From: a virus
Virus record (IMG/VR): IMGVR_UViG_3300030060_003999
Span: 1 to 55,549 of that record
DNA length: 55,549 nucleotides
Reading direction: 5' to 3' (one strand)
In this document: piece by piece, positions 14,903 through 37,141 of the stretch
Layout: every line of letters starts with the position of its first letter
How positions within the stretch are numbered: position 1 is the first letter of the stretch
Position numbers and translations under genes: made by a program
The notes under the pieces: generated by a model
What the model was told of the DNA's origin: nothing
Databases searched by the model: none
What the model saw: the letters and a program-made list of their open reading frames with translations, nothing else

Positions 14903-17900
14903 TCAAAACCTACTATTTCTTAAAATTTGAGTATTTAGCATTTTACCTATTTCATTGGCAACTTTTCTCATTTCTGCCTTAGAGGTATCTTTTGCATTGA
15001 CTACAATGTTGTAGTTATGAGTATGATTATTATTAACAGTATTATTTGTTTGTCCACCGACCATCTTTTTAGACTGGCTATTAGAGAAAACAGTAGAACC
15101 TTTCGGTAATTGAACTAATTCTGGGCCTTCTTCTCCAACTAAATTCATTCTTCCATCCGTTATACCACCCTTTGCTTTACCGCCACCAAACCATTTAGAA
15201 GGATTTAATTTATCAGCAAGCCACTTAAACATTTTAATAACTGGTTTTGTTGCTTTCCAAAGAACAACTCCAATTACAACTGCTAACCAAACTGGCGCAC
15301 CCATGATTAAGGCAACAATTACTCCTATAACAGCAATAACTACACCTATTCTTTTCAAGAACTTTTTACCATCTGTAAGCATTCCATAAATATAATTAAC
15401 TGTTTTATCCCATAATACTTTAGTTAATTCCCAAACTAGCATTAATGCTATACTTAATCCAGTTAAAGCAAGACCTACGGCCATTATCAGTAGTCCTAGA
15501 CCCATTTCAATTAATCCGTCTATTGCTTCACTTATTGAACCATCACCAAAGAAAGCACCAAATACTTTCATAAATCCTTCAAAGAAGATTGATGCTCCTG
15601 CCATAACTATTTCAAATAGAGGAGCAACAGTATCAATTATATTAGACCAAACATCTTTAATTGCAGGCAATATCTTTTTGATAATAATTAAAGCACCTAT
15701 AATTGCAAGAGATACAAATAAGAAATATTTACCAGCAGCCCTTAATATATTCATTATTGCTCCAGGAAATGCTTTAAGACCCTTAAATATCTTAAACACA
15801 AATCCTAATGCTGGGAATTTTTCAAGTAGTTTTTTAGTGGCTTCTTCCTTTAGTTCTTGTAATACGGTTAATTGCTCTTGAGAACCTTCTAATTCTACTT
15901 GTCCTTCATCAATTTCGGAAACTGCTGCTTCTTGATTTTTAATTGCTTGATTTTTATCTTTTGTGGCAGCATCTATCTTATCATCTTCTTTTTGCAGTTC
16001 AGCATCCATTTCATTAGATAATCTTATTTGTTCAGGAATACTTTCCGCAGCAGCGATTCTTGCTTCATAATCTTTAATAATCTTATCTTTGGCTTTTTCA
16101 GATTGTTTGATTTGTTTATTACTAGCATTAATTATTTTTTCTGCACCAGCGAGTCTTTCTTTAGCAACTTTGATGGTTTGCTTCTGTAATTTAATTTCAT
16201 CTTTAAGGTTTTTAATACCTTTAGATTTTATAGACTGTATGTTTAATCCTTCTTGTAATGTTTCACGCACTTCTAGTGCCTTATTCATTTCTTCTTCTGC
16301 CTTAATCATTGTTTGGAATGCTTCTTCTATTGCAGTATCGTCAATACCAAATAAACCTGAATTTCGCATTTCTATCATTGAATCTAAAATTTGTTTAGAA
16401 TCTTCATATGCATTGGAAACTTCTGCTACTTTATCTTTATTTTTTTCTATTGCATCATTAATTTTTTGTATTTCTTCTGCATTATTAAATCCTTTTTTGA
16501 AGGCTTCTCTATTTTCTTCATAAGCCCCTTTTAAATCTACTAATCTTTTTCTATACCCTTGTAAGCCTTTAGTTCTGATTGAGTCTATTTTTTGTTCACT
16601 ATCAATAATCAATTGTGCATTTTCTTCCACCATAGCAGTCTGTGTATCAGCAAAACTAATTGCTGCTTCTAATTTGTTAGAATAGTCTGTTTTAGCATCA
16701 ATTAATTCTCTTTGTATTGCTTCTTCTTTATCCAATAGTTCGTTTAATTCTATTTGTGCTTTGTTTCTTTTAGACCAAGCACCAACATTACCACCATCTA
16801 TTGATTTTTGAATTTTTCTAAGTTTCTTATCGGCTGCTATAATTTCATCGCCCAAATTAGTAAAGGAGGTTTGTAAAGCAACAACATTATCGTCTTTAAT
16901 TCCTTGCGCTGCTCCTAAATCTTTTTGTTTTTTCTTAACATCAACTGTTGATACCTTACTAATATCAAATTTCTTTGCTAATTTAACAGCATCTTTTAAT
17001 TGCTTAATTTGTTGTTTTTTAGCAGGAGTTAAATTGAGCAAAAAATTCTTCGCAAATAACTTCTTTGCTTTTTTAAATGGAGATTTTAATTGTTTAAATT
17101 CATGGCTTGCTCTTTTCTTGAATTGTCCCTTAGTAAAAAATATGTTAGAAAAAGAATTTTTCTTTAGAATTTTTCTTGCCTCTTTCATGTCTACTTCTAT
17201 TCTACTAACCAAAGGCTTTTTCATAAAATTAGCAATTTTCTTAAATCCTTTAAGAGAAGAAGTAATGAAGTTTGGCTCAGATTCACTTCTTAATTCATCA
17301 AGCATTTCGTTTAATTTATCAAACTGTTCTGTTCCTTTTTCAACTTCACCCGACGCAATTATTCCTTCTAATTTTTCTATTTCCTCTCTTACGCCTTTTC
17401 CGCCATCTTTGATTTTTCTAAATGTTCCTCCTAAAAATTGGAAAGAAGATGAGAATTTATTTAGTAATCTAAATGCTCCAGGCGGTAAAAACCCATACAT
17501 AACTTTACGGGCTTTTGCTGCTTCTAAACCAAATACAGTTAATTCTTCTCTTGATGAGGATAAAAATTCTGCAAAATATTCAAGAGTATTTCCACCCTGT
17601 TTTAAGTAAACATTTAATCCTTTAAGAAAAGGAACTGCTTTACCCTCTTTAGTAAATTTAGCAATAGTTGAATTAAGAATAGCGGTTCTTTTATTGAACC
17701 CTCCCATTACTTCTCCTACTTTTGTTATTTGCTGTCCATATTCATTTACTCTTACGCCAGCCTTATCAAATAATTTTTCACCATCTCTTGTAGCAATACC
17801 TAATCTTTTTTGTAATTTAGTTATATCTTCGGTTGCCTTATTAGCCGATTTAATGTTAGATTCATAACTACTTAAACTGTTAATTAGTTTTTCAATGTTT

Positions 17901-17947
17901 CCACCTAAACCTAATATTGAAGTATTAAGTGTAGCAATTTCTGACAT
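14903..17947 (-). CDS. tail tape measure protein
   Basis: The protein has 1,014 residues from ATG 17947 (a GTG at 17956 is an alternative). The first 700 are long charged coiled-coil helices. About 735-905 hold four hydrophobic segments (for example LFVSLAIIGALIIIKK and LLIMAVGLALTGLSIALML), and the C-terminus has a Gly/Asn/His-rich patch (NNTVNNNHTHNYNIVV). The motif GRMNLVGEEGPELVQLP near 940 is a hallmark of phage tape measure proteins. The length would fix a tail of roughly 150 nm. The hydrophobic part probably enters the host membrane on DNA ejection. It follows the frameshifting chaperone pair, as usual. Confidence 0.9.
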   Translation of the reverse strand: MSEIATLNTSILGLGGNIEKLINSLSSYESNIKSANKATEDITKLQKRLGIATRDGEKLFDKAGVRVNEYGQQITKVGEVMGGFNKRTAILNSTIAKFTKEGKAVPFLKGLNVYLKQGGNTLEYFAEFLSSSREELTVFGLEAAKARKVMYGFLPPGAFRLLNKFSSSFQFLGGTFRKIKDGGKGVREEIEKLEGIIASGEVEKGTEQFDKLNEMLDELRSESEPNFITSSLKGFKKIANFMKKPLVSRIEVDMKEARKILKKNSFSNIFFTKGQFKKRASHEFKQLKSPFKKAKKLFAKNFLLNLTPAKKQQIKQLKDAVKLAKKFDISKVSTVDVKKKQKDLGAAQGIKDDNVVALQTSFTNLGDEIIAADKKLRKIQKSIDGGNVGAWSKRNKAQIELNELLDKEEAIQRELIDAKTDYSNKLEAAISFADTQTAMVEENAQLIIDSEQKIDSIRTKGLQGYRKRLVDLKGAYEENREAFKKGFNNAEEIQKINDAIEKNKDKVAEVSNAYEDSKQILDSMIEMRNSGLFGIDDTAIEEAFQTMIKAEEEMNKALEVRETLQEGLNIQSIKSKGIKNLKDEIKLQKQTIKVAKERLAGAEKIINASNKQIKQSEKAKDKIIKDYEARIAAAESIPEQIRLSNEMDAELQKEDDKIDAATKDKNQAIKNQEAAVSEIDEGQVELEGSQEQLTVLQELKEEATKKLLEKFPALGFVFKIFKGLKAFPGAIMNILRAAGKYFLFVSLAIIGALIIIKKILPAIKDVWSNIIDTVAPLFEIVMAGASIFFEGFMKVFGAFFGDGSISEAIDGLIEMGLGLLIMAVGLALTGLSIALMLVWELTKVLWDKTVNYIYGMLTDGKKFLKRIGVVIAVIGVIVALIMGAPVWLAVVIGVVLWKATKPVIKMFKWLADKLNPSKWFGGGKAKGGITDGRMNLVGEEGPELVQLPKGSTVFSNSQSKKMVGGQTNNTVNNNHTHNYNIVVNAKDTSKAEMRKVANEIGKMLNTQILRNSRF

Positions 17948-17952
17948 ATGAA

Positions 17953-18159
17953 TCACTTTTGTTTTTTCATTTGCTTATCCATTTCTTCTGCTTCTAATTG
18001 TAAAAAGGCCGTATGAACACATAATAAATCTTGGACTAAACTTGCTGGCATTTTGTATATTTCAAGTGGACTTATTGCTAATGCTTTCGCTAATGTATAT
18101 ACAACGATTAACGAAGCGTCTTTGGGTTCGGCTTTACCTCCCCTCAATACACGCTTCAT
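17953..18159 (-). CDS. tail assembly chaperone, frameshift extension (T part)
   Basis: This 68-residue frame overlaps the end of the chaperone gene by four bases in the -1 frame. It need not be translated on its own: a canonical A AAA AAC slippery site at 18165-18171 lies in the correct frame, and slipping would continue through CGA AGA ATG into this frame. The result is a fusion of about 191 residues. In lambda the equivalent gpG and gpGT proteins chaperone the tape measure. The sequence is helical (SLIVVYTLAKALAISPLEI). It sits directly before the tape measure gene, as the family requires. Confidence 0.72.
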   Translation of the reverse strand: MKRVLRGGKAEPKDASLIVVYTLAKALAISPLEIYKMPASLVQDLLCVHTAFLQLEAEEMDKQMKKQK

Positions 18160-18715: not shown

Positions 18716-20308
18716 TCACCCCAAAAGGACATAATCGGTAACTACTACGCAAGAATGTAGATTTCTTGGCTTAATAGTGGAACTAAAAGTTACTGGCCCT
18801 TTATCATCAGGAATAGTAATTTCAGTTGTATCAAGGAAATAATCTTTAAATTCTAAAGTAATACTTTCGCTTGTGTCAGGCTTTGTAAAAGTAAAAGTTA
18901 CACGATTAGCCGTAGTGTTTTCTGTTTCATTAAGCATTTCTTTGAATAACATATCATCAGTTACTACTGCTTCAAAAGTAATTTCATATGAGCGTTGTGC
19001 AGGAATACCCTCTTTCATATCTCTATGACCGCCCATATATCTCTTATCTAGTAAGTTATTGTTAATAGCAATACTTACTGAATTAACTTTCAAGAATTGT
19101 TGCCCAAATGCGCTAAATGTTCCTTGAGAGAAAAAGAATGGCGAAGCATGGTCTGTTCCCGCATTAAAGTTAAATAGATTAGCATTGTCTGTTTGACCTG
19201 CTCTTGAAACATAATCCGATGGTGAAACACTAGCAGACCTGTATAAATCAGTAATACTATCAACTAATCTTGCATTCAAATCCATGTTCATTTTTAATTC
19301 TTCACCTTCGGATGCTTCAATAGTTAATGAATTGACTCGGCAACCTCTTGCGATTCTAACAAAGTTATTAGATTCATCAAGACTTGAAGTTGAATCAGTC
19401 GTTAAACTTGCGGGGTCTTTAGCCATTGATTGTTCAAGGCTGAATGAAGGAAGTTGGTCAGTATTAAGTTCTTTAATTGTGTATTGAATATTTTTCGGTC
19501 TTCCGTCAGTATCAAAGTCCACAGTTTGATTATTTGCATTAGTTTCAGGGAAAATAGTAAAATCAACAGGAGGAACAATAGTTGTTCCGCCTTTTACTGT
19601 TCTATAAAAGTGTGGGCCAGTTTCAGTAACTATTGCCACACCATCAGTTGAATTTGCATTTGTTCCTTCAATATAGATTGCATCTGCTGTTCCAGTTGGA
19701 GGTGCATTTCCCGCAGGATAAGTAATTGTTTGATGTGTTTTCCTACCAAAAGTAATAGCGTCCATAGCACCAAAAGCGTAATAAAGCCATGAACCTGTAT
19801 TTGCGACTAAAGCAAGAGAACCGTTATCAGCAGTTCTAATTCCTTTATATTGGAAAGAGAAGTTTCTTGTTCCACCAAGACCAAGATTCATCTGTTTAAT
19901 TTCTTGACTTAGATTAGGGAAAGTTACAGATTCCATCAAACCTAACCAATTATCAGCCAATAAACATTGTCTACCACTTACTTCAGGATGAGGTGAAGGA
20001 GAACCATAAGCCCTTAATAGAGCATGAGTATGACCACTTCCAGAATAAGTAGTTGAAAGAGTAATAGTCCCTGTTGTATTTGAACCAACAGAATGACTTG
20101 AAATTAATGTTCCTGCATTATAAATATCAATAGTGCTTCCAATATAAATATTCGGAACTAACTTAAAAACATCTGAAAATGCCGTATCAGGTGTTAATAC
20201 AGTTGTTGTTATTCCGCCACCCGTTCCATCAACAGGAATAAATATATCCTGTTCTGGAATAAATGTCGTGCTTGCTCCGCTTCCTAAAAATATTTCGTTA
20301 TTTACCAT
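18716..20308 (-). CDS. major tail tube protein
   Basis: The 530-residue protein is strand-rich, low in charge and without a signal peptide. It lies directly upstream of the tail chaperones and tape measure, the standard position of the tail tube protein. The C-terminal half (SFSLEQSMAKDP, RGCRVNSLTIEASEGEELKM, YEITFEAVVTDD) resembles tube proteins with the beta-sandwich fold that polymerises into the tube. It is larger than usual, so the N-terminal 120 residues with Gly/Thr-rich repeats may form an extra surface domain. No separate sheath gene is seen, so a non-contractile tail is likely. The start follows GGGGAG. Confidence 0.72.
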   Translation of the reverse strand: MVNNEIFLGSGASTTFIPEQDIFIPVDGTGGGITTTVLTPDTAFSDVFKLVPNIYIGSTIDIYNAGTLISSHSVGSNTTGTITLSTTYSGSGHTHALLRAYGSPSPHPEVSGRQCLLADNWLGLMESVTFPNLSQEIKQMNLGLGGTRNFSFQYKGIRTADNGSLALVANTGSWLYYAFGAMDAITFGRKTHQTITYPAGNAPPTGTADAIYIEGTNANSTDGVAIVTETGPHFYRTVKGGTTIVPPVDFTIFPETNANNQTVDFDTDGRPKNIQYTIKELNTDQLPSFSLEQSMAKDPASLTTDSTSSLDESNNFVRIARGCRVNSLTIEASEGEELKMNMDLNARLVDSITDLYRSASVSPSDYVSRAGQTDNANLFNFNAGTDHASPFFFSQGTFSAFGQQFLKVNSVSIAINNNLLDKRYMGGHRDMKEGIPAQRSYEITFEAVVTDDMLFKEMLNETENTTANRVTFTFTKPDTSESITLEFKDYFLDTTEITIPDDKGPVTFSSTIKPRNLHSCVVVTDYVLLG

Positions 20309-21046: not shown

Positions 21047-22348
21047 TCAATCCAAGAAATAAACCAAATCGCCTTTGCCTTTTAAAATATCCATAGCCTC
21101 TTTACGAAGAATATCATACTTTTCTTTTGCAGTAATATTTCCGCCTGTTTCTGCAATCAAAACACTTTGGTCATCCATTCTTATAATTTCAGATGCAACT
21201 AATTTAGTAGTTGCTTCGTGAATAGCAGACGGAACTCTATTGTCTCCCGCAATATAAGAAACAATAATTGAGTTATTAGTATGGTATGGATAATCTCTCA
21301 AAAAGAAGATTCTACCTTCTTCATTTATTGTCCAATAAGAACCAAGTCTTTTCAAGTCTTCTTTATCTGTAAATGCAGTCAAATTACAAACAGTAGGAAT
21401 AGAAGCGTCAGTAGTGAATATTAAATCATTTGTCCCAGTAGCAGAAGCAGGTGCGCTTAATACAACATTTGTTGCATCTGTAATAGAAGCGATAGTAATT
21501 GTTCCTGTAATACCTGTTCCTGTAATTGTCATACCTACGGCTAATTTAGTTGAATCAGCCACAGTAAGAGCAGTAGAACTGTTTATTGTTGAACATGACT
21601 GTTTTATTGTTGCCTTGAGAACACAATCCGAGCCGTCATCGCTCAAAAGTAGGGATGAGATGTTAATTTGCTTGCCATTTGACTTGTCCTTTGAGGCATA
21701 GAAAAAGTCTGAAATAGAGAGATTAGAAGAAGTGAGGGTTTTTACTGCACTTGCACCAGTATATTGTGAAGTTGAAGGAAATTGCTCATTTATTAATGAA
21801 ACAATTTCAGCCGAAGTAGTCTTTACTCCAAAGGTATTACAGAACTCATCGTTCCCTAGTTGTGCAATATCGTTTTCCGATAATAGAGTAAAAGATACTC
21901 CGCTATCTGGTAGTTGTAAAATAATAGAATTCAAATCTCTAAAGTTATCTTGTAAAAGAACTTTAGCCTGTGCTGATGCAATTTCTTCATAGTGGCTTCC
22001 TTGCCACAATTGAAGTGAAACAATCTTACGAACTTTCATTTGTTTTAATTGAATGAAACCAACATAACCACCATAATAATGATTATTTGGGCCTCTTGTA
22101 AATTCAAAGTTATGGTATTCATCTTTTGTAATAATAGGTCTAAAGGAACGCTTTACTTTATCATCCACGATACCTTCTACTCTTTTAATTATAGAACCCA
22201 CTTGAGCAGTAGTAGGATAAGTAGTGCCACTAAAAGCAGGTATTTGTAATAAATTAGCGACTTCTGTTGCATTTGTATAGAAACCACGACCCTGAGTATA
22301 ATTAGGGTTGATTTCTGTAAAATCACTTGGAGAAATTGTTGTTCCCAT
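21047..22348 (-). CDS. head-tail adaptor with inserted Ig-like domain
   Basis: The start at ATG 22348 follows AGGTGA and gives 433 residues. The N-terminal helix region QVGSIIKRVEGIVDDKVKRS and the C-terminal VPSAIHEATTKLVASEII are typical of phage head-tail adaptors (gp6/gp15 type), which bind the portal and start the neck. Family members are usually 100-200 residues. Here a long beta-rich middle (about 130-330), with the Ig-like segment TITGTGITGTITIASITDATN, is inserted. That insert could project from the neck. It lies between a large unknown protein and the small connector gene. Confidence 0.6.
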   Translation of the reverse strand: MGTTISPSDFTEINPNYTQGRGFYTNATEVANLLQIPAFSGTTYPTTAQVGSIIKRVEGIVDDKVKRSFRPIITKDEYHNFEFTRGPNNHYYGGYVGFIQLKQMKVRKIVSLQLWQGSHYEEIASAQAKVLLQDNFRDLNSIILQLPDSGVSFTLLSENDIAQLGNDEFCNTFGVKTTSAEIVSLINEQFPSTSQYTGASAVKTLTSSNLSISDFFYASKDKSNGKQINISSLLLSDDGSDCVLKATIKQSCSTINSSTALTVADSTKLAVGMTITGTGITGTITIASITDATNVVLSAPASATGTNDLIFTTDASIPTVCNLTAFTDKEDLKRLGSYWTINEEGRIFFLRDYPYHTNNSIIVSYIAGDNRVPSAIHEATTKLVASEIIRMDDQSVLIAETGGNITAKEKYDILRKEAMDILKGKGDLVYFLD

Positions 22349-22349
22349 T

Positions 22350-24656
22350 TTACTCACCTATCTTTTCTTTTAATACTGATAGGTTTTCTTTTAAGTCTTC
22401 AATGACATTTACCATTTCATCATTTCTTCTTCTTTGCATAGGACTTAAAATGAACTCCCCATGATTGTATATTACCATTTCAATATGCATAATAACAGGG
22501 TCAAAAGCATCTGATATATTAGCATAATAAACTAAAGGATTTATTTGAACCCCTGCACCAGTTACTACGGCTAATGCTTTATCAGTAACTTTTCCAAACT
22601 TATCAGGCTTATCAATAGTAGCCCCCCTTCTCGGTGGTCTTGCTTCTCTTTTACTGCGTAATTCTCTAGCCCTTAATTCTTTAGCATCTGCTTCATCTTC
22701 GGGGTCTAATTCTCTTTCATCATAAACAGGCTCATAAGCACCAAAAGATTCTCTATTTGATTTAAACCTTTTAGCACTAATAACAACTTTTCTTGCAGGT
22801 AAATAATCATCTTCGTTGCCTTTCATGGCTTGAAGTCTATCATATTCTCCTTTGTCAATATATTGCCCAGTAAATCTACTGCCTTCTTGTAATTCAGGGT
22901 TATATCTTCGTTCAAAAGAATATAATTTTTCAGCACTCGCTTTGTCGCTTTTAATCTGCGCTTCGGATTTTTTCTTTCCTTTTGCGTCTACTTCACTTAA
23001 AAATAACTGTCTTCTTTCTTCAATAGACTCTTTCAATTCTTCCGCTTCTTCAGGGCTTAAATTTTTATCTGTTTCTATTATAGATTTTCCATCAGCGTTT
23101 CTTTTTGGTGTATAATATTCTATTTTTTCTGCTTTTTCAGCATAAGCATCTTCGGGAGCATCCTTTAATCTATATTCACGAATTGTTTTATGTGTTGTTG
23201 AAATTTCATTACTAGGAGTTCTTGCTACACTATCTAAACCAATAACATAATAATTAGGAATATATGCCATCTTTTCATCATTTTGTAAAGACATATACGC
23301 ACTATTACTAATTTTCTCCTTTGTATCTTTATTAGTCCATGCTTCTCCTTCAAGTTTCATCATGTCTTCAACTGATGCTTGTCTATATTTACCATCCACT
23401 AATATTTCAATAGATTCAACAAATTGTTCATTTCCTTCTTCATCTCTACCTGCTTTCCAAGTTCTATCACCTTCAAGAAACTTTTCTACTTTACGAGTTA
23501 ATGAATTATTTACAGTAGTTTCTGTCTTAAAATTAACTTCTCCTTTGTAAGTGAGAGCCTTCATAGGGTCAGAAAGCATTGGAGAAAGTTTTTCTTCAAT
23601 TGTTTTTAACATAGGTAAAAATGCTTCCTCAATAGCCTTTAAATTTGATTCGGGAAGACTAACTCTATTATCTCCTTTGGTGGCTTTTTCTCCAACAACT
23701 TGAACTAATCCTTTGTTTTTTAATGTAAAAACATTAAATTCTTGCATAAGTTCTGTTCTATCTGCAAGACCAGCAATACCCAGTTCTATAAATTCTTGAT
23801 GGTCTAATTCTTCTTCTGAACCAGTAGAAGTGAAATCAACTACATTGTTATTGTTATCGGTTTTTTCTTTAACAGGAATAACAGATATTTTAGCACTATC
23901 TTTTAGAGCCTTAATAACCTTTTCAGGTATATCAATTCTCATAGTCTTTGTTATTCTAGGAGGAAAAGATTTAGATTTAGAAGGTCTAAAGTCAGGAGTT
24001 TGACCGCTTTCATCAATTAAATGATTCTTTTTAGATTCAATAATATCTTCTTCGTCATATGGTGATTGAAATACAATGTTTTCTTTACCATAACTAAATC
24101 TAGTCGGTTGCATAGCAGGGTCTTTGTCGGGATTAAATGGAACTTTATCAAATGTTAAAGTAGCATTTACTCCATAGTCTTCATCAGTAAAAGCATCTTT
24201 AACATATTTCTCTATGTCAAATTCAGGTAAGTTCTCAAATGATTGCCCAAACTTTAATGCACCAAATCCTCTTAGTCTGTTTAAAGCATCGGAATCAGAT
24301 AAATCACTTACTTTTAACCCCTCAAGAAAATCAATATTCTCTTGGTTAGTAATTACTTTATTTCTTACTTTACTAGTTGTAAAGTTCTTAATTGCTCCTT
24401 CTCCATCATCATGTCCTCTAATTAGAGGCATGAGTTCATCATTACTAATGTCCTCAAAAATATCTTGAAAAGCATCAAGTAAAGGTTGAGTGTCTTTATT
24501 GTTTTGTTCAAGGTCTTCTAATGCTAACCCTAAATAAGAAATAAATTCAACATTTTCTTCTTGGATAAATTTTAGCATCTGTTCTTTGATTCTATCAGCA
24601 CTAGATGGTAATTCAATTGTTAAATTACCCCAAAGAAAAGAAACCAACCAATTCAC
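22350..24656 (-). CDS. large structural protein of the head-tail junction, unknown family
   Basis: This 768-residue protein is rich in Lys, Glu and Asp, mostly helical with patches of strand. No motif is recognised. A lysine-rich zone near 640-680 (KELRARELRSKREARPPRRG) could bind nucleic acid. The frame starts with GTG 24656, giving MNWLVSFLWGN, whose Met-Asn-Trp resembles the N-terminal tag of the late accessory genes but lacks the final Lys; a TTG a few codons later is an alternative start. It sits between a 212-residue glutamine-rich protein and the adaptor. I infer a virion or assembly protein by position only. Confidence 0.5.
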   Translation of the reverse strand: MNWLVSFLWGNLTIELPSSADRIKEQMLKFIQEENVEFISYLGLALEDLEQNNKDTQPLLDAFQDIFEDISNDELMPLIRGHDDGEGAIKNFTTSKVRNKVITNQENIDFLEGLKVSDLSDSDALNRLRGFGALKFGQSFENLPEFDIEKYVKDAFTDEDYGVNATLTFDKVPFNPDKDPAMQPTRFSYGKENIVFQSPYDEEDIIESKKNHLIDESGQTPDFRPSKSKSFPPRITKTMRIDIPEKVIKALKDSAKISVIPVKEKTDNNNNVVDFTSTGSEEELDHQEFIELGIAGLADRTELMQEFNVFTLKNKGLVQVVGEKATKGDNRVSLPESNLKAIEEAFLPMLKTIEEKLSPMLSDPMKALTYKGEVNFKTETTVNNSLTRKVEKFLEGDRTWKAGRDEEGNEQFVESIEILVDGKYRQASVEDMMKLEGEAWTNKDTKEKISNSAYMSLQNDEKMAYIPNYYVIGLDSVARTPSNEISTTHKTIREYRLKDAPEDAYAEKAEKIEYYTPKRNADGKSIIETDKNLSPEEAEELKESIEERRQLFLSEVDAKGKKKSEAQIKSDKASAEKLYSFERRYNPELQEGSRFTGQYIDKGEYDRLQAMKGNEDDYLPARKVVISAKRFKSNRESFGAYEPVYDERELDPEDEADAKELRARELRSKREARPPRRGATIDKPDKFGKVTDKALAVVTGAGVQINPLVYYANISDAFDPVIMHIEMVIYNHGEFILSPMQRRRNDEMVNVIEDLKENLSVLKEKIGE

Positions 24657-24657
24657 C

Positions 24658-25296
24658 TCACATTAACCATTTTGCCCATGCAGCAGTTTTTTGTATTGCT
24701 GAACCTAAATGTAATCCGCTTTGCGGTGGTTCATAACTCATTTGTCCTTGAGCATCAATCCAATAAGGACGGCCATATCCGTCTGTTCCGCTTGGAGGAA
24801 CAGGATAACCTGAACCATTATTCATAGCACCCTGCATTTGGTTATATTGTTGAGTTTGACCCGTTATTCCAGCAATCGCCATACCTGCCGATGGTGCGCC
24901 ACCAAACCCTTGAGATTCTAAGTATTGTTGCTTCGCCATCTTTCGTTGATTAACGACTTCTGTATTGATTGCTGATTGTAATAGGTTTTGTAAGTCTAAA
25001 TCAATGTTTTCTTGAGTAATTCTTTCGTATTCTCTCAAAGCATCTCTATTGATAGTAATTGATGAACCGCTAGTATCAAAAGAAAGTTTTGCGAGCATTT
25101 GTGAAACAACACGCTCAATAACATCTTCCATTAGTTTTTCAAGGGCGGCTAAAAAGTGTTCACCATGATATTGAAAAAATTCTTCTACATGATTATCTTG
25201 TAAAGATAATAAGTTGTTCATTGATTTAAAATTTTGGTCGCCCTGTTGTTGAACTGCACCTAAAACTGTTCCGTTACTTGTTCCTAATATTCCCAT
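24658..25296 (-). CDS. Gln/Gly-rich structural protein
   Basis: The 212-residue product has a helical N-terminal half (VEEFFQYHGEHFLAALEKLM and a second long helix around 90-115), then a Gly, Gln, Tyr and Pro-rich stretch (QTQQYNQMQGAMNNGSGYPV) and a short hydrophobic end. Low-complexity tails of this sort appear in virion proteins that contact membranes or other subunits. Its start follows GGAGGAATAATC. It lies behind the zinc-finger protein and before the large junction protein. No known family. Confidence 0.5.
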   Translation of the reverse strand: MGILGTSNGTVLGAVQQQGDQNFKSMNNLLSLQDNHVEEFFQYHGEHFLAALEKLMEDVIERVVSQMLAKLSFDTSGSSITINRDALREYERITQENIDLDLQNLLQSAINTEVVNQRKMAKQQYLESQGFGGAPSAGMAIAGITGQTQQYNQMQGAMNNGSGYPVPPSGTDGYGRPYWIDAQGQMSYEPPQSGLHLGSAIQKTAAWAKWLM

Positions 25297-25298
25297 GA

Positions 25299-25967
25299 TT
25301 ATTCCTCCTTAATTTGTTTTTCTTCGGGTTCATCATTAACGGCTTCTATTTGGTGCTTTAACATCAAATGTCCTAATCTGTCAGTCATTATGTTAATTTC
25401 AGTTATTAGTTGAATGACTTCTTGGGTTGCCGTCCTGTTATCTGCTAAAGCGGGTGGCTTAATAAACCAACCGCTTGCAGTAAGAGCAATTACATCTTTT
25501 TTGGTTAATTCAGTAATTGGCCCAGTTTTCATCATCTTTGGCATTTTAGGAACAAATCGTTTAAACTCTAGTCCATGTTTATCAGCCAGTATTTGTTGTT
25601 GAAGCATCTCTAATTGCATATACATAGCGGAATGTTTAGGACAGTATGTTCCCAAAAGAGGTCTACCCTTAATTACACCATCTAAAGGAATTGGCGGTCT
25701 TAAGTAATCTCCTTGTTCCCAAACATGATGCATTCCACAAACAACACATCTATCTTTTAGATTGAATTTCTTACTATATTTAATTCCTAAAAACTTCTTA
25801 GGTTCAGCAGTTAAAACTTTAGTAAGTTCTTTGAGTTGTTTTTTTGGTTTAATTTCAGTAAACTTATATTCTACAACAGCCCCACTAGCCCTAGCCTGTT
25901 GTAATGGCGTTAAAGTGGGGTTAAACTGTTGCGGTGCGTTCTGTCCTATTAATTGGTTTTGATACAT
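25299..25967 (-). CDS. zinc-finger protein of the structural operon
   Basis: The 222-residue protein has a likely zinc site made by CVVCGMHH (around 75-82) and YCPKHS (around 109-114), spaced as in a treble-clef or HNH-like fold. I see no HNH catalytic pattern. The N-terminus is Gln/Asn-rich and the C-terminal third is a long helix. It follows the GTPase gene after nine bases and precedes the Gln/Gly-rich gene, and the start follows GAGGAATAAAG. It could be a partner or effector of the GTPase or a connector protein; neither can be shown here. Confidence 0.5.
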   Translation of the reverse strand: MYQNQLIGQNAPQQFNPTLTPLQQARASGAVVEYKFTEIKPKKQLKELTKVLTAEPKKFLGIKYSKKFNLKDRCVVCGMHHVWEQGDYLRPPIPLDGVIKGRPLLGTYCPKHSAMYMQLEMLQQQILADKHGLEFKRFVPKMPKMMKTGPITELTKKDVIALTASGWFIKPPALADNRTATQEVIQLITEINIMTDRLGHLMLKHQIEAVNDEPEEKQIKEE

Positions 25968-25976
25968 CTTTATTCC

Positions 25977-26645
25977 TCAGTAATCTTTTATCATTGTCAT
26001 TACGCCTCTATATACCATTTCGGGGTCTGACTTTGCTGAAACTATATATTTGAAGCATGGTATTCCTTTATCATTTAATTGCCTCATTCCGTATGTAAAG
26101 GGGTCAAAGATTTCATGTTTATCTATGGTTTGTCCTTCTTCTAATGGATATTTTTCTCCCCATATATCATATTTATTAGCCCATATTCCTACTGCCATCG
26201 GATAATCTGGTTCTCTTTTCTTTCTCCCAGTAGGCCAAAAATCTGAACATATTGTATCAACTAAAAATTTCCATGCTACTTGATGGTCTAAGTTTGAATT
26301 ATTGTCTAAATGCCTATGGTCTATCATAAAAATAATATATTTTACTTTACGCTTTTGCATATCTTTTACCCATTCTTTCCAGTAAATTGCTTCTCCTCCA
26401 ATATCAGCACTTTTTATTGTATGTGAATCTCCATCTATTTTAACATTTTTTCTTGAGGCTCTATGTAATCCAACCGTTCTTTCTTGTATTGTCGGCACTT
26501 CTCCCCTTGTTCTTAATTGATGACTTAATGTTGTTTTACCAACCATTGTTGCTCCATAAACTCCAAAATTAATTGCATGAACTTTCTTCCAAAAACCAAT
26601 TACTGCTTCGCCAACTAATATGGCGAATCCTGTCATTAATGACAT
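25977..26645 (-). CDS. Arf-like small GTPase with N-terminal membrane segment
   Basis: The 222-residue protein has all five G motifs in order: G1 GATMVGKT (31-38), switch I Thr in PTIQERT (51-57), G3 DIGG (81-84), G4 NKYD (157-160) and G5 SAK (203-205). The DxGG form of G3 is typical of the Arf/Arl/Sar branch, but the following residue is Glu85 where most have the catalytic Gln, so hydrolysis may need a partner. Residues 6-22 (GFAILVGEAVIGFWKKV) form a hydrophobic or amphipathic membrane anchor. It abuts two small membrane-protein genes upstream. GTP binding is very likely; its role in assembly, entry or membrane remodelling is inferred. Confidence 0.85.
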   Translation of the reverse strand: MSLMTGFAILVGEAVIGFWKKVHAINFGVYGATMVGKTTLSHQLRTRGEVPTIQERTVGLHRASRKNVKIDGDSHTIKSADIGGEAIYWKEWVKDMQKRKVKYIIFMIDHRHLDNNSNLDHQVAWKFLVDTICSDFWPTGRKKREPDYPMAVGIWANKYDIWGEKYPLEEGQTIDKHEIFDPFTYGMRQLNDKGIPCFKYIVSAKSDPEMVYRGVMTMIKDY

Positions 26646-26864
26646 TTAATGCCCCCATATTCCTTTCACCGCATCAATAATCCATCCCATGATGTTTATA
26701 TCAAAAACACCCATGATGTTTCCGATAAGAAACATTGAAAGCGTGGAGAATGTTCCCCAAAACCACGCTCTCATCTTTAAAAAAAATACATCAGCAGAAT
26801 GCGCTCTTGATTGATTATATGCGTAATCCGAGTCGGAAAAACCCATTAAATCACTAAGAACCAT
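26646..26864 (-). CDS. small membrane protein upstream of the GTPase
   Basis: The 72-residue product has a polar start (MVLSDLMGFSDSDYAYNQSR) and two hydrophobic stretches, AWFWGTFSTLSMFLIGNIMGVF (about 33-54) and a shorter IMGWIIDAVKGIWGH at the end. It is probably membrane-inserted. Its stop is immediately followed by the GTPase ATG (TAA-ATG), so the two are translated together and may be partners. The ribosome-binding site is GGTAGGTTAA. No family is recognised. Confidence 0.6.
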   Translation of the reverse strand: MVLSDLMGFSDSDYAYNQSRAHSADVFFLKMRAWFWGTFSTLSMFLIGNIMGVFDINIMGWIIDAVKGIWGH

Positions 26865-26877
26865 TTAACCTACCCCT

Positions 26878-27273
26878 TTACTGGAGTGTGGCTAAAAATT
26901 CACTTCCAACGGAATTAACTTCTTCTTCTTGTTGTAATTGAGGTTGATAGAAAGGTGTTGCACCACCAAACTGTCTTGCGCTTTCACGCATTTTTTGTCT
27001 TTGTTGCTCATCTCTTGCTTTTCTTTCCCAATAAGCAGCAATCTTTCTATCTAGTAGCCACATCTCAATTCTATCATTAAGTGCTAAATCAAAAATTGCT
27101 TTCATTACCATGATTGCACCAATTGTTCCTAAGCCAAATAAGAAGGCATGAGCAAATGAACCATAAGGGAAATTAGTTCCAAATTGAGCATAAGCCCAAA
27201 CATTTGTTCCACTTAATGCCCCAACAAAAAGAATTGTCATAACTAAACGGGTATCTGTATTTAATGCTGCCAT
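26878..27273 (-). CDS. two-pass membrane protein with helical tail
   Basis: The 131-residue protein has two membrane spans, RLVMTILFVGALSGTNVWAY (about 9-28) and FAHAFLFGLGTIGAIMVMKAIF (about 40-61). A charged helix (WERKARDEQQRQKMRES) and a Gln/Glu-rich C-terminus follow. Placement between head accessory genes and the GTPase suggests a virion membrane-interacting component or an assembly factor. With the next gene it forms a membrane pair upstream of the GTPase. The start follows AAGGTGATTAT. Topology and function are predicted only. Confidence 0.6.
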   Translation of the reverse strand: MAALNTDTRLVMTILFVGALSGTNVWAYAQFGTNFPYGSFAHAFLFGLGTIGAIMVMKAIFDLALNDRIEMWLLDRKIAAYWERKARDEQQRQKMRESARQFGGATPFYQPQLQQEEEVNSVGSEFLATLQ

Positions 27274-27282
27274 ATAATCACC

Positions 27283-27564
27283 TTAAGCGAAATGAATGTA
27301 AGTATTAGCATCGCCAGTAGTTTCTTCATAAAAGATTCCATTAGAACAAATAACTCCATGCATGTCAAATTCAAGATTTTGGACTTGTCCACCATCTAAG
27401 TCAATACGGGCTAATTCTTTACCTGTATTGTCTGTTCCATCAAATACTTTAATTTGACACGGTGCGCCACTATCGTTATTAACATGAATTGAAATCAATT
27501 TACATTGACCGTTAATTACTTGGGTATCATCAGTTAATAGTCCACTACTTCTGCAACTTGCCAT
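27283..27564 (-). CDS. small beta-rich head accessory protein
   Basis: This 93-residue protein is strand-rich (CKLISIHVNNDS, CQIKVFDGTDN, NLEFDMHGVIC) with four cysteines, and looks like a small beta-sandwich such as phage decoration or fibre-knob proteins. It follows a strong stem-loop (27585-27614) and the start comes after GGAGAGATGAAGT. It is the third small gene after the capsid gene, so a capsid-surface or neck role fits. I have no family name for it. Confidence 0.5.
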   Translation of the reverse strand: MASCRSSGLLTDDTQVINGQCKLISIHVNNDSGAPCQIKVFDGTDNTGKELARIDLDGGQVQNLEFDMHGVICSNGIFYEETTGDANTYIHFA

Positions 27565-28331: not shown

Positions 28332-29693
28332 TCACAGCAAATTGGTAATCTTTCCTTGACCCTTGAAGTAAGAACAACCAACTTCACCAATAGTTCGGTA
28401 AAGAGCCTTGTTTCCAAGATGGCCGACACCGAATGGGTTTCCGTTTGAAATACCATCTTCAAAGTATTGAGTTGGCTTCATAACAGATAACCAAAGATGG
28501 TCTGTATCAAGTAGTAGCATATCGCTAATACAAGAAGTATTAGCACCAGTTGAAGGCATAGCCGCAACAGGAATCATAGGAATGTCGTAATAAGTAGAAA
28601 CTCTAAATCCGACTTCTTGACCCTTAACACCACGAACACCATTAACAGTAGGAACAATCTCCTTTCTATCCATGAATCGCTCTTGTGCTTGTAATAGGTC
28701 AGAAATGGTTTGAAGTGTATCATATCCAGTTAGAATAACCTTTGGTGAACCACCTGCAACTCTCAAATCTCTAAGCGTAGAGTTTAGAACAGTAAGAGTC
28801 AAAGAACGAGCATTTCCACTAGCATATCCGACTCCACCGAAATTAACCTGTGCATCAAGGAAAGAAGCAGCACTACGAGCCTTACCGTAAATAGTTTCAA
28901 TAGCAGCAACACCTGAGTTTGATGCAGTTAGAACAGTTCCAGATGCCATAGCGTCTAATTCTCCCTTAGAAGAAACAACCTTCATCAAAGAAGTATAGTT
29001 TCTTTGAATGTTAGCGATTTGGTTTGTAGCCTGTAAATTGTAGTTTTCAAGAGGCATAACGAGCATAGCGTTTTGAGTTTCAGCATGGTGCTTACCCATG
29101 TCTTCTCTCATTTGCGCTCTAATATCGCCAATTCCATCGTCAATTTGCGCCATTTCCATAGCCAATTCGCTGAATTCAAATTGATGAGCAACAATCTTTG
29201 GGCTAGTGAACAATTGCTCGTATTTAGGAGCAACAGACGCTAAACCATCAGCAGCAGTTGAAAGTGCTGCATTTTCAGGAACACCACCCAATAAGTCAGG
29301 TCGCATTGTATTTGAACCAATAGTTGCTTCAGATGTGGCTTCATTTACACCAGTCAAATTAAGGAAATTACCGCTACCACCAGCAGGTCGCTCGCTTAGA
29401 ACTCTCCAACCGCTTGAAGTGTAAGGTCTTTTAGCAATAACTGAAAGAGCATTACATTCCCTGTTTAGCATAGACCAGACTTTTTGGCCGTAAATCTTGT
29501 TATACAAAGCACCAAGCGAACTTGCTGCTCCTGCGGAATTAGTGCTTGATACACCAATTGATGCATCATGCCCAGTATGCAAACCTGCAATAGAACCTGC
29601 TTGCTTGAGCAATTGGTTGTTAATGCCTGTATGACCAGTAATTCCGTATGTTTGTGCTTCTAAATCTCCAATCGTGTTAATATATCCTGTCAT
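28332..29693 (-). CDS. major capsid protein (HK97 fold)
   Basis: The 453-residue protein follows the protease-scaffold gene, the standard order for HK97-type heads. The N-terminal 50 residues are polar and Gly/Ser-rich, like a delta domain or arm. The body has capsid-like stretches (SGWRVLSERPAGG, QLFTSPKIVAHQFEFSELAM, PKVILTGYDTLQTISDLLQ) matching the E-loop, spine helix and P-domain pattern. A good GAGGTGATTTAAC precedes the ATG. The shell should assemble on the scaffold made by the gene upstream and be matured by its protease. High confidence from order and composition. Confidence 0.85.
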   Translation of the reverse strand: MTGYINTIGDLEAQTYGITGHTGINNQLLKQAGSIAGLHTGHDASIGVSSTNSAGAASSLGALYNKIYGQKVWSMLNRECNALSVIAKRPYTSSGWRVLSERPAGGSGNFLNLTGVNEATSEATIGSNTMRPDLLGGVPENAALSTAADGLASVAPKYEQLFTSPKIVAHQFEFSELAMEMAQIDDGIGDIRAQMREDMGKHHAETQNAMLVMPLENYNLQATNQIANIQRNYTSLMKVVSSKGELDAMASGTVLTASNSGVAAIETIYGKARSAASFLDAQVNFGGVGYASGNARSLTLTVLNSTLRDLRVAGGSPKVILTGYDTLQTISDLLQAQERFMDRKEIVPTVNGVRGVKGQEVGFRVSTYYDIPMIPVAAMPSTGANTSCISDMLLLDTDHLWLSVMKPTQYFEDGISNGNPFGVGHLGNKALYRTIGEVGCSYFKGQGKITNLL

Positions 29694-29704
29694 GTTAAAT
29701 CACC

Positions 29705-30370
29705 TCAGTTAAATCCTCCAACCATCTTATGAATGTCTGACCAATCCATTTCGGCCAATTCTTCCATTGTTGGGAGTTGTATTGCGGATTCTTCTTGTGC
29801 CTTTAGGATTGTTTCCTTTTCAGCAGTCAAAGACTTCCTTAGTGCAGTAAATTCTTCCTTTAGAGAAGAAATTTCGCTTTGAGCGTCATATTGGGACTTT
29901 GCGAGAACATTCTCACGGTTAGCCTTTTCATGTGCAAAGCGGTTTTCAAATTGCTTTTGAAGATTGTCGTAAGCCAACTTTTCAAGTTGTTCTTGGCGGA
30001 AAGCCTCATAAGCCTTCTCAATGTTAGCAACGCTCAAATCAAGCGTTTCTAGTTCATTGTTGCCGAATGCCTTAACAACTGGCAAATCGGATGGTTTAGG
30101 GTTTCCGTTATCAATAACGATTCTGTTAGCAGGTTCGCCAATTTCAACACCTGCACCATCAAGAGTAGGTAAAAGGGCTTTGTTTTCTTCATCAGAATAA
30201 TCGCCTTTTTCTGCTTCGGGCATCATGTCTTCTTCATTATCCATGTATTCGCCACCCATCTTTTCTTCTTCGGGCATTTGCTTTTCTTCTTCTTCTTCTT
30301 CCTTACGGAGAGTATTTACCTCAGCCATAAGTGCGTCTAGTTCTTCTAGTGCTTTTTCAATTTTACTCAT
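29705..30370 (-). CDS. nested scaffold protein from an internal in-frame start
   Basis: Inside the protease-scaffold gene, codon 181 is an ATG (30368-30370) preceded by AAGGTGAAAACT, the same type of ribosome-binding site used by the true genes here. Translation from it would give a 221-residue scaffold without the protease domain: coiled coils and the C-terminal WSDIHK peptide. Lambda makes its Nu3 scaffold in the same nested way within gene C. The protein was not observed, only its start signal. Confidence 0.55.
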   Translation of the reverse strand: MSKIEKALEELDALMAEVNTLRKEEEEEEKQMPEEEKMGGEYMDNEEDMMPEAEKGDYSDEENKALLPTLDGAGVEIGEPANRIVIDNGNPKPSDLPVVKAFGNNELETLDLSVANIEKAYEAFRQEQLEKLAYDNLQKQFENRFAHEKANRENVLAKSQYDAQSEISSLKEEFTALRKSLTAEKETILKAQEESAIQLPTMEELAEMDWSDIHKMVGGFN

Positions 30371-30910
30371 AGTTTTCACCTTTTTTGTTTTTGTTTTGTC
30401 TTGTTTTAGAATATCAAATCTTGCTTCTGGGTTTATTCCTTTTTCGCATATTGTTACTTCGTGCAGTTCAAGTTTGCTTATTTCATTAAATTCGCCTAAT
30501 TCTGGATGGCTTTTCTTTACTTTTTGTAATGCTTGTCCTCCAATACTAAACGACCTTAATGAACCTTTACGAATGCCTCTATTTATTTCTTTGGCTTTTT
30601 CAATATCATCTCTTAATTTAATAACAACAAAGAATCCAACATCATCAACTTCTGTTTTCCACAATCTCCCTGTTTTATCTCTATATGATTTTACTACTTC
30701 CCCAACTTGAACATTTGAATGATTTGTCATTACATTTCTAAACTTAGGGTTCTCCATATATTTGTTTACTGCTTCATTAAGAGCCTTGAGTGTAATTAAG
30801 TCATTTTGTTTATCAACGATTTCAATGCTTGCATATCCTCCAATCATCAAGTCGTCGCTTTTTAGAATCCTGAAATCATGGGTATTGTTTGACATAACCG
30901 CAGATGACAT
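29705..30910 (-). CDS. prohead protease fused to scaffold domain
   Basis: The 401-residue protein begins with an HK97/S78-type prohead protease domain (about 1-170): VMTNHSNVQVGEV with the catalytic His near 64, RSFSIGG with the Ser near 122, and ELHEVTICEKGINPEA closing the fold. Residues 181-401 are acidic coiled coil (RKEEEEEEKQMPEEE), the scaffold part. The extreme C-terminus has MDWSDIHKMV, almost identical to the end of the 81-residue protein at 34001 and matching the N-terminal tag of many late proteins. An ATG with a ribosome-binding site at codon 181 probably gives free scaffold. It should shape the procapsid and then digest scaffold. Confidence 0.85.
   Translation of the reverse strand: MSSAVMSNNTHDFRILKSDDLMIGGYASIEIVDKQNDLITLKALNEAVNKYMENPKFRNVMTNHSNVQVGEVVKSYRDKTGRLWKTEVDDVGFFVVIKLRDDIEKAKEINRGIRKGSLRSFSIGGQALQKVKKSHPELGEFNEISKLELHEVTICEKGINPEARFDILKQDKTKTKKVKTMSKIEKALEELDALMAEVNTLRKEEEEEEKQMPEEEKMGGEYMDNEEDMMPEAEKGDYSDEENKALLPTLDGAGVEIGEPANRIVIDNGNPKPSDLPVVKAFGNNELETLDLSVANIEKAYEAFRQEQLEKLAYDNLQKQFENRFAHEKANRENVLAKSQYDAQSEISSLKEEFTALRKSLTAEKETILKAQEESAIQLPTMEELAEMDWSDIHKMVGGFN
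29720..29749 (-). other. C-terminal WSDIHK docking peptide of the scaffold
   Basis: These codons give residues 388-397, MDWSDIHKMV, four residues before the end of the protease-scaffold. Nine of ten positions equal the peptide near the end of the 81-residue protein at 34001, and W-x-x-I-x-K matches the N-terminal tags of at least 18 proteins. It probably contacts the capsid or portal from inside the procapsid. Confidence 0.6.
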
Positions 30911-30954: not shown

Positions 30955-33468
30955 CTAATCTTCGGTAGGAATGGTTAATTTATTATACCTACTTTCGTAT
31001 ATATTCCACTTTCCTTCATCCCCTTCCTTATCAGCAGGAGTTTGTTTATATCCAGTCCATGTTAGCCACATTGGTTTATTATCAATAGGAATGACCCTAA
31101 AGTGCATTTTAGTTTCAAACTTATTACCTTTCAAGAAATATTCATGGTAGCCTTCTTTTTGAACACCAAGTTCAATATCTCCCGAATCAATAACTTTCCC
31201 TCTTTCAATATTCTTTGAAACTTCTGCTGGATATTTGCCAGCAGCACCGAACAAATCAAATAACTCTTCTTCTCCTTCTAAATCAATAGTCCAATTTAAA
31301 ATTTCATCATTAATACTGATAGATAAGTGAACATTATTGTCTTTACGGTTGTAAATTTTAAATTTACCGTTTCTATATTCTTTAGGAGTCTTATATTCTT
31401 TTTTAATTTCTTCTTCTTCGGCTAATTTAATTGAAGGGTCAGCATGTAATTTATTATTTATCATGCTAATATGTTCTCTTTCTTGTGCCCAATCACCAAT
31501 CTTTCTTAATTTAGATTCTAATACAGTTTCATATAATTCTGTAAATTTATCTTTTAAGTATTCATGGACTTCTTTAGGAGTTCTATCTCCTTTATCTTGT
31601 AAGAAATTGACAATAGCAACAGTTAATTCACCTTGCTTTGTTTTCATTATTTCTTCTGCTTGAGCCTTCCACATATCAATATCTCTTAAAGCATTTTTAG
31701 ACATTAAATTATTCTCTTCAAAACCATAAATAACAAATCCGCCAGTATCATATTTAATGATGGCAGTAGTTTCACCATGTATATTATCTGTTATCTTTAC
31801 TCCTTTTTTAAAGGCTTCAACATCATAATTCAAAGACTTCTTAGTATCTTGCGATAATAACTCAAGAGTAACTAATTTATCAGGATGCTCAACTTCAGGT
31901 ATTTCAATAACTTTAGCGGAGAATAAACTATATCCTTCTCCTTTCTTCTTTACTTCATCAACCTTTACTCTAATAATATCGCCAATGTCCACAGCAACCT
32001 TAGTATTTAGGGCTTTACCGACATTAAGATATTTTCTACCATCAATCTCTTTTCCTTCCATATCTTCAGGGATTGGCCCAACACCAACAGTATAAGAATA
32101 AAGATTGCTCTTAGTCTTTTTCTTATCTAACACAATAACATCTAAATCAACAAACTTTTTCATTTTAATCCACTTAGGATTCTTTTTTGTTCCTAGATAA
32201 TAAGTTGAAGTAGCGTCTTTAATCACAACTCCTTCAGAAGTAGGCATTTCCATAATTTGTTTTGCATACTCTTCTAAATCTTTAAGACTATCAGCCTGTC
32301 TTGTATCTTTCTTAGAAGGGAAATTTAAGAATTCCGATGATTTCGCAGCGTAATTATTGAATAAAATAGTCATTCTATTTTCTAATTCTTCATCAAGTAA
32401 TGTCTGCGCTTCATGTCGCATAATGTCAAACACATGGCATTTTAGTTTAGCATCTTTGTATTTGCCTTTGAACACATGAGCGATTGTATCAGCACGATGT
32501 AATGGTTCTTCACCATCAAAAAGAATTAACTCCGCATCAAACATACAGTTGCCATATTCTTTTTTCTTTAACTCTTTGACAATTTCATCACATTTATCTG
32601 TAATATCTTTCTCATTATAAGAATAGACTTTGACTTTATTATCTATTTTGTGCAACTGAATACGCATACCATCATATTTTTCTTGAATATACCAATTACC
32701 ACTAAATCCTTTTAATTCATTAATATCATCAATTTCAAAGATACGATACATGGGTTTGTTTGGAATAACGAAATCAGTAACAGATTTTTCTTTTTCTGAT
32801 TTAGTTTCGGACTTTTGCATATCAATGTCTTTAAGGTTTGCCCATTCTTCTTCTTCATGTTGAGAAAAGAAAATAAGTTCTAACATATCAAGAGCAGCCT
32901 TTACTTTCTTTTCAACCTTCTTTGAGTCTTTTCCATCCCCGTAATGCTCAATAATATACAGGGGTATATCGTCCACTTCTAGGTCAAGACCCACAAGACC
33001 CTCCGTAATTGTGTCGGGTTGCATATCTTTAATGGCTAAAACATCATCAGATAATGCTTTATTGTCTTCCCTCATAGCATAATGCACAAATTTAACCATT
33101 GTTTCAGGATTATCTAATAATTCTTCAAGAACATTCCCTTTAAACATATCAGCGAAAGGGTCAGCAATAATTTTTGAGTTATACCTTACTAGTTTAATTT
33201 TATCAAAAAGGTTCTTTGCTTTAGATGATTTAGGGTCTTTTACTTCAGTAGCAGTTATTTCTTCTTCTCTAAGGAAGTTCTTTAATTCTTTACCTGCTGC
33301 ATCTAATTCATCATAGGATTCTTCAATCATTTCAACGGCTTTACGCCAACGCCCCGAATATTCATCGGGGTCGTGAACTGCTGATAAATATGCAACTCTC
33401 GTCTTTTCAAAAAGGCGCATCAACTCAATAGAGGGTTGCCTATCCTTTTCAATAGAACCGAGTTTCAA
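30955..33468 (-). CDS. ATP-dependent DNA ligase with extra N- and C-terminal domains
   Basis: About 837 residues from a TTG at 33468, five bases after GGTGG; a GTG at 33477 is an alternative. The nucleotidyltransferase motif I is EKYDGMR (lysine near 264), followed by the family's other motifs: FDAELILFDG, EGVVIKD and KNPKWIKMK. An OB-type domain comes next (IGDIIRVKVDEV). The N-terminal 240 residues are probably a helical DNA-binding domain. The last 200 residues contain KFKIYNRKDNNVHLSISI and later GKVIDSGDIELGV, which recall a degenerate LigD 3'-phosphoesterase domain. It lies in the late head operon, unusual for a ligase, so it may repair or seal genomes at packaging. Ligase activity is well supported. 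Confidence 0.85.
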   Translation of the reverse strand: MKLGSIEKDRQPSIELMRLFEKTRVAYLSAVHDPDEYSGRWRKAVEMIEESYDELDAAGKELKNFLREEEITATEVKDPKSSKAKNLFDKIKLVRYNSKIIADPFADMFKGNVLEELLDNPETMVKFVHYAMREDNKALSDDVLAIKDMQPDTITEGLVGLDLEVDDIPLYIIEHYGDGKDSKKVEKKVKAALDMLELIFFSQHEEEEWANLKDIDMQKSETKSEKEKSVTDFVIPNKPMYRIFEIDDINELKGFSGNWYIQEKYDGMRIQLHKIDNKVKVYSYNEKDITDKCDEIVKELKKKEYGNCMFDAELILFDGEEPLHRADTIAHVFKGKYKDAKLKCHVFDIMRHEAQTLLDEELENRMTILFNNYAAKSSEFLNFPSKKDTRQADSLKDLEEYAKQIMEMPTSEGVVIKDATSTYYLGTKKNPKWIKMKKFVDLDVIVLDKKKTKSNLYSYTVGVGPIPEDMEGKEIDGRKYLNVGKALNTKVAVDIGDIIRVKVDEVKKKGEGYSLFSAKVIEIPEVEHPDKLVTLELLSQDTKKSLNYDVEAFKKGVKITDNIHGETTAIIKYDTGGFVIYGFEENNLMSKNALRDIDMWKAQAEEIMKTKQGELTVAIVNFLQDKGDRTPKEVHEYLKDKFTELYETVLESKLRKIGDWAQEREHISMINNKLHADPSIKLAEEEEIKKEYKTPKEYRNGKFKIYNRKDNNVHLSISINDEILNWTIDLEGEEELFDLFGAAGKYPAEVSKNIERGKVIDSGDIELGVQKEGYHEYFLKGNKFETKMHFRVIPIDNKPMWLTWTGYKQTPADKEGDEGKWNIYESRYNKLTIPTED

Positions 33469-33482
33469 TAATACCACCCCAA

Positions 33483-36820: not shown

Positions 36821-37141
36821 TCACCTATTATCTCTTACTTGAATTGCTCCAACTTCTATATTTCCTTGAGTTCCGATAAGTAATTCAATTAGTTGTTCTT
36901 CACTATAAGAACCAATTACATCCATTACTTTGTCCATTAAATCTTCACGGGTAGCATTGGCTAATTCCTCTCTTTCTTGCCTATCTTCATCTGTTTCAGC
37001 AAAAGGATTTCCAGTATCTCTACCAAGTCTAGGACTTTTTCCACCTACAAGTTTAGTTTGAGGCTTTCTACGCTCAGGCGCACGATTACGCCTATTAGGG
37101 TCTAATTCTCTTTTTTCTTTAATTATTGTTCTCCAATCCAT
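36821..37141 (-). CDS. tagged small protein after the portal gene
   Basis: The 106-residue protein opens with MDWRTIIKEKREL, a full W-x-x-I-h-K tag, followed by a basic disordered part (RNRAPERRKPQTKLVGGK). The C-terminal 55 residues are acidic helices (REDLMDKVMDVIGSYSEEQL, IELLIGTQGN). Its start overlaps the last base of the portal gene, so both are co-translated, and it may bind near the portal inside the head. No family recognised. Confidence 0.55.
   Translation of the reverse strand: MDWRTIIKEKRELDPNRRNRAPERRKPQTKLVGGKSPRLGRDTGNPFAETDEDRQEREELANATREDLMDKVMDVIGSYSEEQLIELLIGTQGNIEVGAIQVRDNR

Follow-up and report, generated by a model that had tools for sequence, protein, structure and literature searches.

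Magroviruses are tailed viruses of the Poseidoniales, which are among the most abundant archaea of the surface ocean. Membrane-organising small GTPases occur in cells and in giant viruses of eukaryotes; as far as we found, none has been reported in the structural operon of a tailed virus. That a membrane protein can take part in building the head of a tailed phage is exemplified by gp40 of phage T4, which assists portal initiation but, unlike the locus described here, involves no GTPase. The pairing of a DNA ligase with the prohead protease is known from a magrovirus of group A (PMC7318539), and the labels PolB-NTD and PolB-CTD of the Aoguangviridae suggest a split PolB (PMC10768690). The magrovirus texts that we searched do not mention a GTPase; an earlier annotation in other magrovirus papers is possible.

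The structural operon compared with HVTV-1

The DNA analysed here (the window) comprises bases 1-55,549 of a 96,885-base IMG/VR virus record. Its minus strand carries the structural operon of a tailed virus, with genes for the terminase (40616-42049), the portal (37141-38781), an ATP-dependent DNA ligase (30955-33477), the prohead protease (29705-30910), a major capsid protein of SU10/HK97 type (28332-29693), the tail tube protein (18716-20308; PF18906) and the tape measure protein (14903-17956). The ligase domain is part of an 840-residue protein encoded directly upstream of the prohead protease, and most relatives share this position of a DNA ligase gene in the structural operon. The capsid protein is a distant relative of that of the Druskaviridae, and DNA polymerase B (PolB) appears split into two genes, whose open frames lie outside the window (G000:C1:92364-94128). 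Based on the ligase-protease pairing, a matching genome size, the apparently split PolB and the Druskaviridae-related capsid protein we treat the virus as a magrovirus, i.e. a virus with Poseidoniales archaea as its presumed host. Between the terminase and portal genes there is a weak match to an HNH endonuclease (39245-40606), and upstream of the terminase a pentapeptide-repeat protein is encoded (43305-44063).

Homologues of the capsid protein, adaptor, terminator and tail tube protein of HVTV-1 (Druskaviridae) are found here in the same order. Profile comparison paired p436 (21047-22357, minus strand) with the head-tail adaptor gp125 (hhalign 98%), p162 with gp127 (80%) and the tail tube protein with gp128 (99.9%). 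The order differs in the stretch from the capsid genes to the adaptor p436, which here holds a fixed block of five genes, TM131-TM72-GTPase-Zn222-p212, in whose place HVTV-1 has a single unrelated small predicted transmembrane protein, gp124. Neither the GTPase nor TM131 or TM72 showed homology to HVTV-1 gp121-128 in the profile comparison, and the GTPase was not found in the records of HVTV-1, HCTV-1, vir335 and vir519 in a search run without a positive control. Among the viruses compared the block is therefore magrovirus-specific and inserted between capsid and neck genes. A deep alignment of the major capsid protein with Druskaviridae yielded no searchable pattern. Upstream of the block, the small protein ig93 (27283-27564, minus strand) occupies, judged by position alone, the slot of the decoration-like genes of HVTV-1.

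A fixed five-gene block

All genes of the block lie on the minus strand. TM131 (26878-27273) is predicted to form two membrane helices in a hairpin, followed by a basic C-terminal tail that is probably cytosolic. TM72 (26646-26864) is a small membrane protein with an invariant RAHSAD motif, and its stop codon abuts the start of the GTPase gene (25977-26645, 222 residues) as TAA-ATG. Both membrane-protein genes and this junction had been described correctly in the earlier note. Hydropathy was the sole basis for calling membrane segments; among the 56 genes of the window the hydrophobic peaks of TM131, TM72 and the GTPase rank second, fourth and fifth, respectively. The GTPase is always followed by Zn222 (25299-25967), a zinc-ribbon-like protein with a CxxC...CxxH pattern that gave no Pfam match and whose AlphaFold2 model (pTM 0.59) found no fold match in the PDB. 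Zn222 possibly represents a new zinc fold. The conserved p212 (24658-25296) has an N-terminal part rich in predicted helices. Between p212 and the adaptor gene lies p768 (22350-24656, minus strand), which is variable or was not detected in many relatives although both its flanks are conserved; the interval between p212 and p436, the gene that marks the downstream edge of the block, often measures about 1.2-2 kb in relatives.

Five scans of viral contigs provided 339 loci and, from them, 210 distinct full-length relatives of the GTPase, down to about 60% identity. A sixth scan with TM131 as bait was used for a linkage test. All 210 relatives come from magrovirus-like contigs, and since sampling was by bait, "order-wide" refers in the following to all magrovirus-like contigs recovered here. 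Starting from the capsid gene, the GTPase was found in 66 of 78 loci, the other 12 breaking off no more than 1.8 kb away from their capsid gene. Starting from TM131, it was present in 76 of 80 loci, with the remaining four ending within 261 bases. Wherever the locus was long enough the GTPase thus follows the two membrane-protein genes (66/66 capsid-baited and 76/76 membrane-protein-baited loci). TM72 and the GTPase lie on the same strand in all 330 pairs, at a median gap of 4 nt. Within the five-gene head-to-neck block the GTPase is an obligate member, and this invariant synteny backs the earlier suggestion of a membrane module within the structural operon. One of the contigs with the same module, L040 (IMGVR_UViG_3300021958_000021), measures 184.7 kb, about twice the usual size of a magrovirus genome.

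The GTPase gene evolves under purifying selection (median dN/dS 0.09) and is the most conserved of the 12 structural-operon genes measured. Its median identity to the window protein amounts to 85% for near and 63% for far relatives, compared to 69% and 59% for the capsid protein. Second among near relatives is p212 with 81%.

Identity of the GTPase

The 222-residue reading frame contains, in this order, GATMVGKT (residues 31-38, G1), DIGG (81-84, at the start of G3, which spans D81-E85), NKYD (157-160, G4) and SAK (203-205, G5), just as had been read from the letters beforehand. In 200,000 shuffles of the protein sequence this motif series never arose, and only one of the 159 stop-to-stop reading frames of more than 60 residues in the window contained it, which rules out a chance motif.

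Taken alone, the window protein reached no curated cut-off (Pfam MMR_HSR1 18.1, NCBIfam small_GTP 19.9), and therefore the family of relatives was built. G31, G36, K37, T38, T39, R56, T57, D81, G83, G84, N157, K158, D160, S203, A204 and K205 are invariant in all 210 members. These positions cover the motifs of the Ras superfamily: GxxxxGK[ST] of G1 (G31, G36, K37, T38; in this family always GxxxxGKTT), the Thr of switch I in G2 (T57), DxxG of G3 (D81, G83, G84; here DxGG), [NT]KxD of G4 (N157, K158, D160) and SA[KL] of G5 (S203, A204, K205). For switch I the earlier note had pointed to PTIQERT as the Arf-type element PT(I)G. This turned out to be a coincidence of letters: position 52 varies between Q, D, T, E and S among the relatives, while R56-T57 are found in 210/210 and G59 in 209/210, such that the G2/switch I element is RTVG.

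In most members of the Ras superfamily G3 is followed by a catalytic Gln, which is missing in some accepted members, e.g. Group 1 Rup (PMC4316618). At the equivalent of Ras Gln61, position 85, we found Glu in 168 relatives, as in the window protein, and Gln in the other 42, with at least four changes on a tree built with that column masked. Natural variation of this kind at the catalytic residue is strong sequence evidence for what would be a working GTPase. Together with R56, which never varies and adjoins the Thr presumed to bind Mg, it may provide clues to catalysis.

Profiles and the predicted fold agree with the motifs. MMR_HSR1 was matched by 43 of 44 relatives and TIGR00231 by all 44 representatives; the Gln-type relatives L341 and L325 pass the MMR_HSR1 cut-off. 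The AlphaFold2 model (pLDDT 79, pTM 0.79) contains a helix at residues 2-22 and is of low confidence in switch I (blocks of 54-59). Foldseek assigned it a G-domain fold: the top PDB matches are all Ras, Rab or G-alpha (best E 3e-8), with a probability of 1.00 to Rab/Ras and TM-scores by target of 0.46-0.67 within the top 50. The best PDB sequence matches by hmmsearch are likewise Ras/Rab proteins; PDB entry 8oun, labelled a "GTP-binding protein", was matched over profile residues 15-130. The first 50 fold matches in BFVD are all from giant viruses of eukaryotes and mostly of Rab/Ras type; these are also small GTPases encoded by viruses but lie outside any tailed-virus structural operon and share only 9-20% identity with the magrovirus protein. 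That 25977-26645 on the minus strand encodes a predicted Ras-superfamily small GTPase is strongly supported by motifs, profiles and model. The earlier note had considered that the protein might instead group with other P-loop families, which was not borne out since the fold matches are small GTPases. A P-loop kinase or AAA ATPase is ruled out by these matches and by the invariant NKxD and SAK.

The placement within the superfamily is less definite. The label "Arf-like" of the earlier note is favoured only by features at motif level, namely DxGG[E/Q] in G3, [A/V]GKTT in G1 and the hydrophobic N-terminal helix directly before beta-1, and by two Gln-type relatives above the Pfam Arf cut-off of 22.3 (PF00025; L325 with 24.5 and L341 with 23.3). 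For the window protein itself no Arf match is listed at E<=10. Where Arf has the Trp of WDxGGQ, the 210 relatives carry Ala or Ser directly ahead of Asp81 and never Trp, and Gln is mostly replaced by Glu. Instead of the myristoylatable Gly2 of Arf, the window protein has Ser2, as do all 199 relatives whose alignment begins at residue 1; a few other relatives start with MAT. The Ras/Rab group shares the G1-G5 series with the family, and accounts for the top Foldseek and hmmsearch matches; one Gln-type relative, L361, lies above the Pfam Ras cut-off. It differs by DTAGQ in place of DxGG, while the magrovirus protein has additional insertions in its C-terminal half and ends with KDY, without a C-terminal cysteine for lipidation. 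Since two relatives pass the Arf and one the Ras cut-off, the superfamily is secure and membership in Arf is not. The SRP receptor beta profile (PF09439) was weakly matched by 34 of 44 relatives, and no tabulated score exceeds the curated cut-off of 25 (window 15.1; best tabulated relative, L348, 23.8). We therefore file the protein, from its sequence, as a putative new family of the Ras superfamily and not as Arf. The MglA family, which is defined by a G3 without Asp (PMC4316618) and has MglB/Roadblock as partner, was rejected due to the invariant Asp81 and the absence of a Roadblock protein from the virus record. The lack of a Roadblock protein also leaves the GTPase with no GAP or GEF candidate, which counts against the switch proposed below.

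Neither Glu- nor Gln-type queries gave a convincing match in a phage database (50,697 records) or in plasmids. A scan of 84,980 cellular species genomes, which reaches close relatives only, returned a single match, on a contig of a Maricaulis sp. metagenome-assembled genome (L105, NZMJ01000024.1). This contig carries the magrovirus gene order and is therefore viral sequence mis-binned into a public genome. With no close cellular relative in these genomes and this sole match being viral, a recent capture of the GTPase from a host was rejected.

Possible roles at the membrane

The hydrophobic N-terminal segment noticed earlier was recovered as a predicted helix at residues 2-22. It is of borderline hydrophobicity and contains a conserved Glu13, and could therefore pack against protein rather than lipid. 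From the sequence context we infer membrane association, GTP hydrolysis and a partnership with TM131 and TM72. The reading that we favour, tentatively and with somewhat more doubt than trust, is a membrane-held GTP-dependent switch formed with TM131 and TM72 that would control a membrane-linked step of head or neck assembly. TM131, with its hairpin and basic cytosolic tail, and TM72 would sit in the host cytoplasmic membrane, where the GTPase would dock via its N-terminal helix and the two membrane proteins. Its GDP/GTP state (switches RTxG and DxGG[E/Q]) could then control the recruitment of capsid or neck components such as Zn222 and p212, and one step in building the head or neck would thereby take place at the membrane. 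The assembly role is a guess from operon position, favoured for the location of the block within the head-neck cluster and for the presence of Zn222 and p212 in it.

The exact insertion between capsid and neck genes would also suit a role in entry: TM131, TM72 and the GTPase would be minor virion proteins of head or neck that are released into the host membrane upon infection and open or gate a DNA channel with host GTP. HVTV-1 gp124 in the same slot is in line with this idea but lacks sequence homology to TM131 and TM72, and a regulated GTPase would be an unusual ejection component; we regard such a role as unlikely. Membrane proteins and a GTPase in a late operon could as well serve exit, with TM131 and TM72 as holin-like or budding factors that are switched by the GTPase during late membrane reorganisation or perforation for lysis or budding. 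Holin-type lysis genes have not been recognised in the related haloarchaeal tailed viruses (review PMC4284463), which leaves room for such a function. However, the genes are part of the head-neck cluster and do not stand at an operon end, they are tightly linked to Zn222/p212 and the adaptor, and no holin or budding homologue was found, which makes exit a rather improbable purpose. Glu13 within the helix, the high conservation along the entire protein and the widespread MMR_HSR1 matches would fit a soluble chaperone that times capsid or connector assembly similar to ribosome-assembly GTPases, its helix being a protein contact and the TM genes unrelated neighbours. The two membrane-protein genes, invariably next to the GTPase in the whole sampled group, speak against such a chaperone, and we consider it quite improbable. 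That the protein mimics and interferes with a small GTPase system of the host and is encoded here by happenstance, as its Ras-superfamily fold might suggest, is very improbable given its fixed place in the structural operon and the lack of a cellular relative among the 84,980 genomes (close relatives only; one mis-binned viral contig).

The favoured switch at the membrane is one form of a broader proposition, which we see as evenly balanced: a Ras-superfamily GTPase would be a hallmark gene of the whole tailed archaeal virus order and drive a membrane step under GTP control, be it assembly, exit or entry of the DNA, that is not known from other tailed viruses. Across the sampled magroviruses the GTPase surpasses even the viruses' capsid protein in conservation. 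Were it to act at the membrane, it would give a first concrete starting point for learning how these uncultured viruses are assembled at the archaeal envelope, enter through it or leave. In that case the family would also provide an independent view of Arf/Ras-type switches outside eukaryotes.
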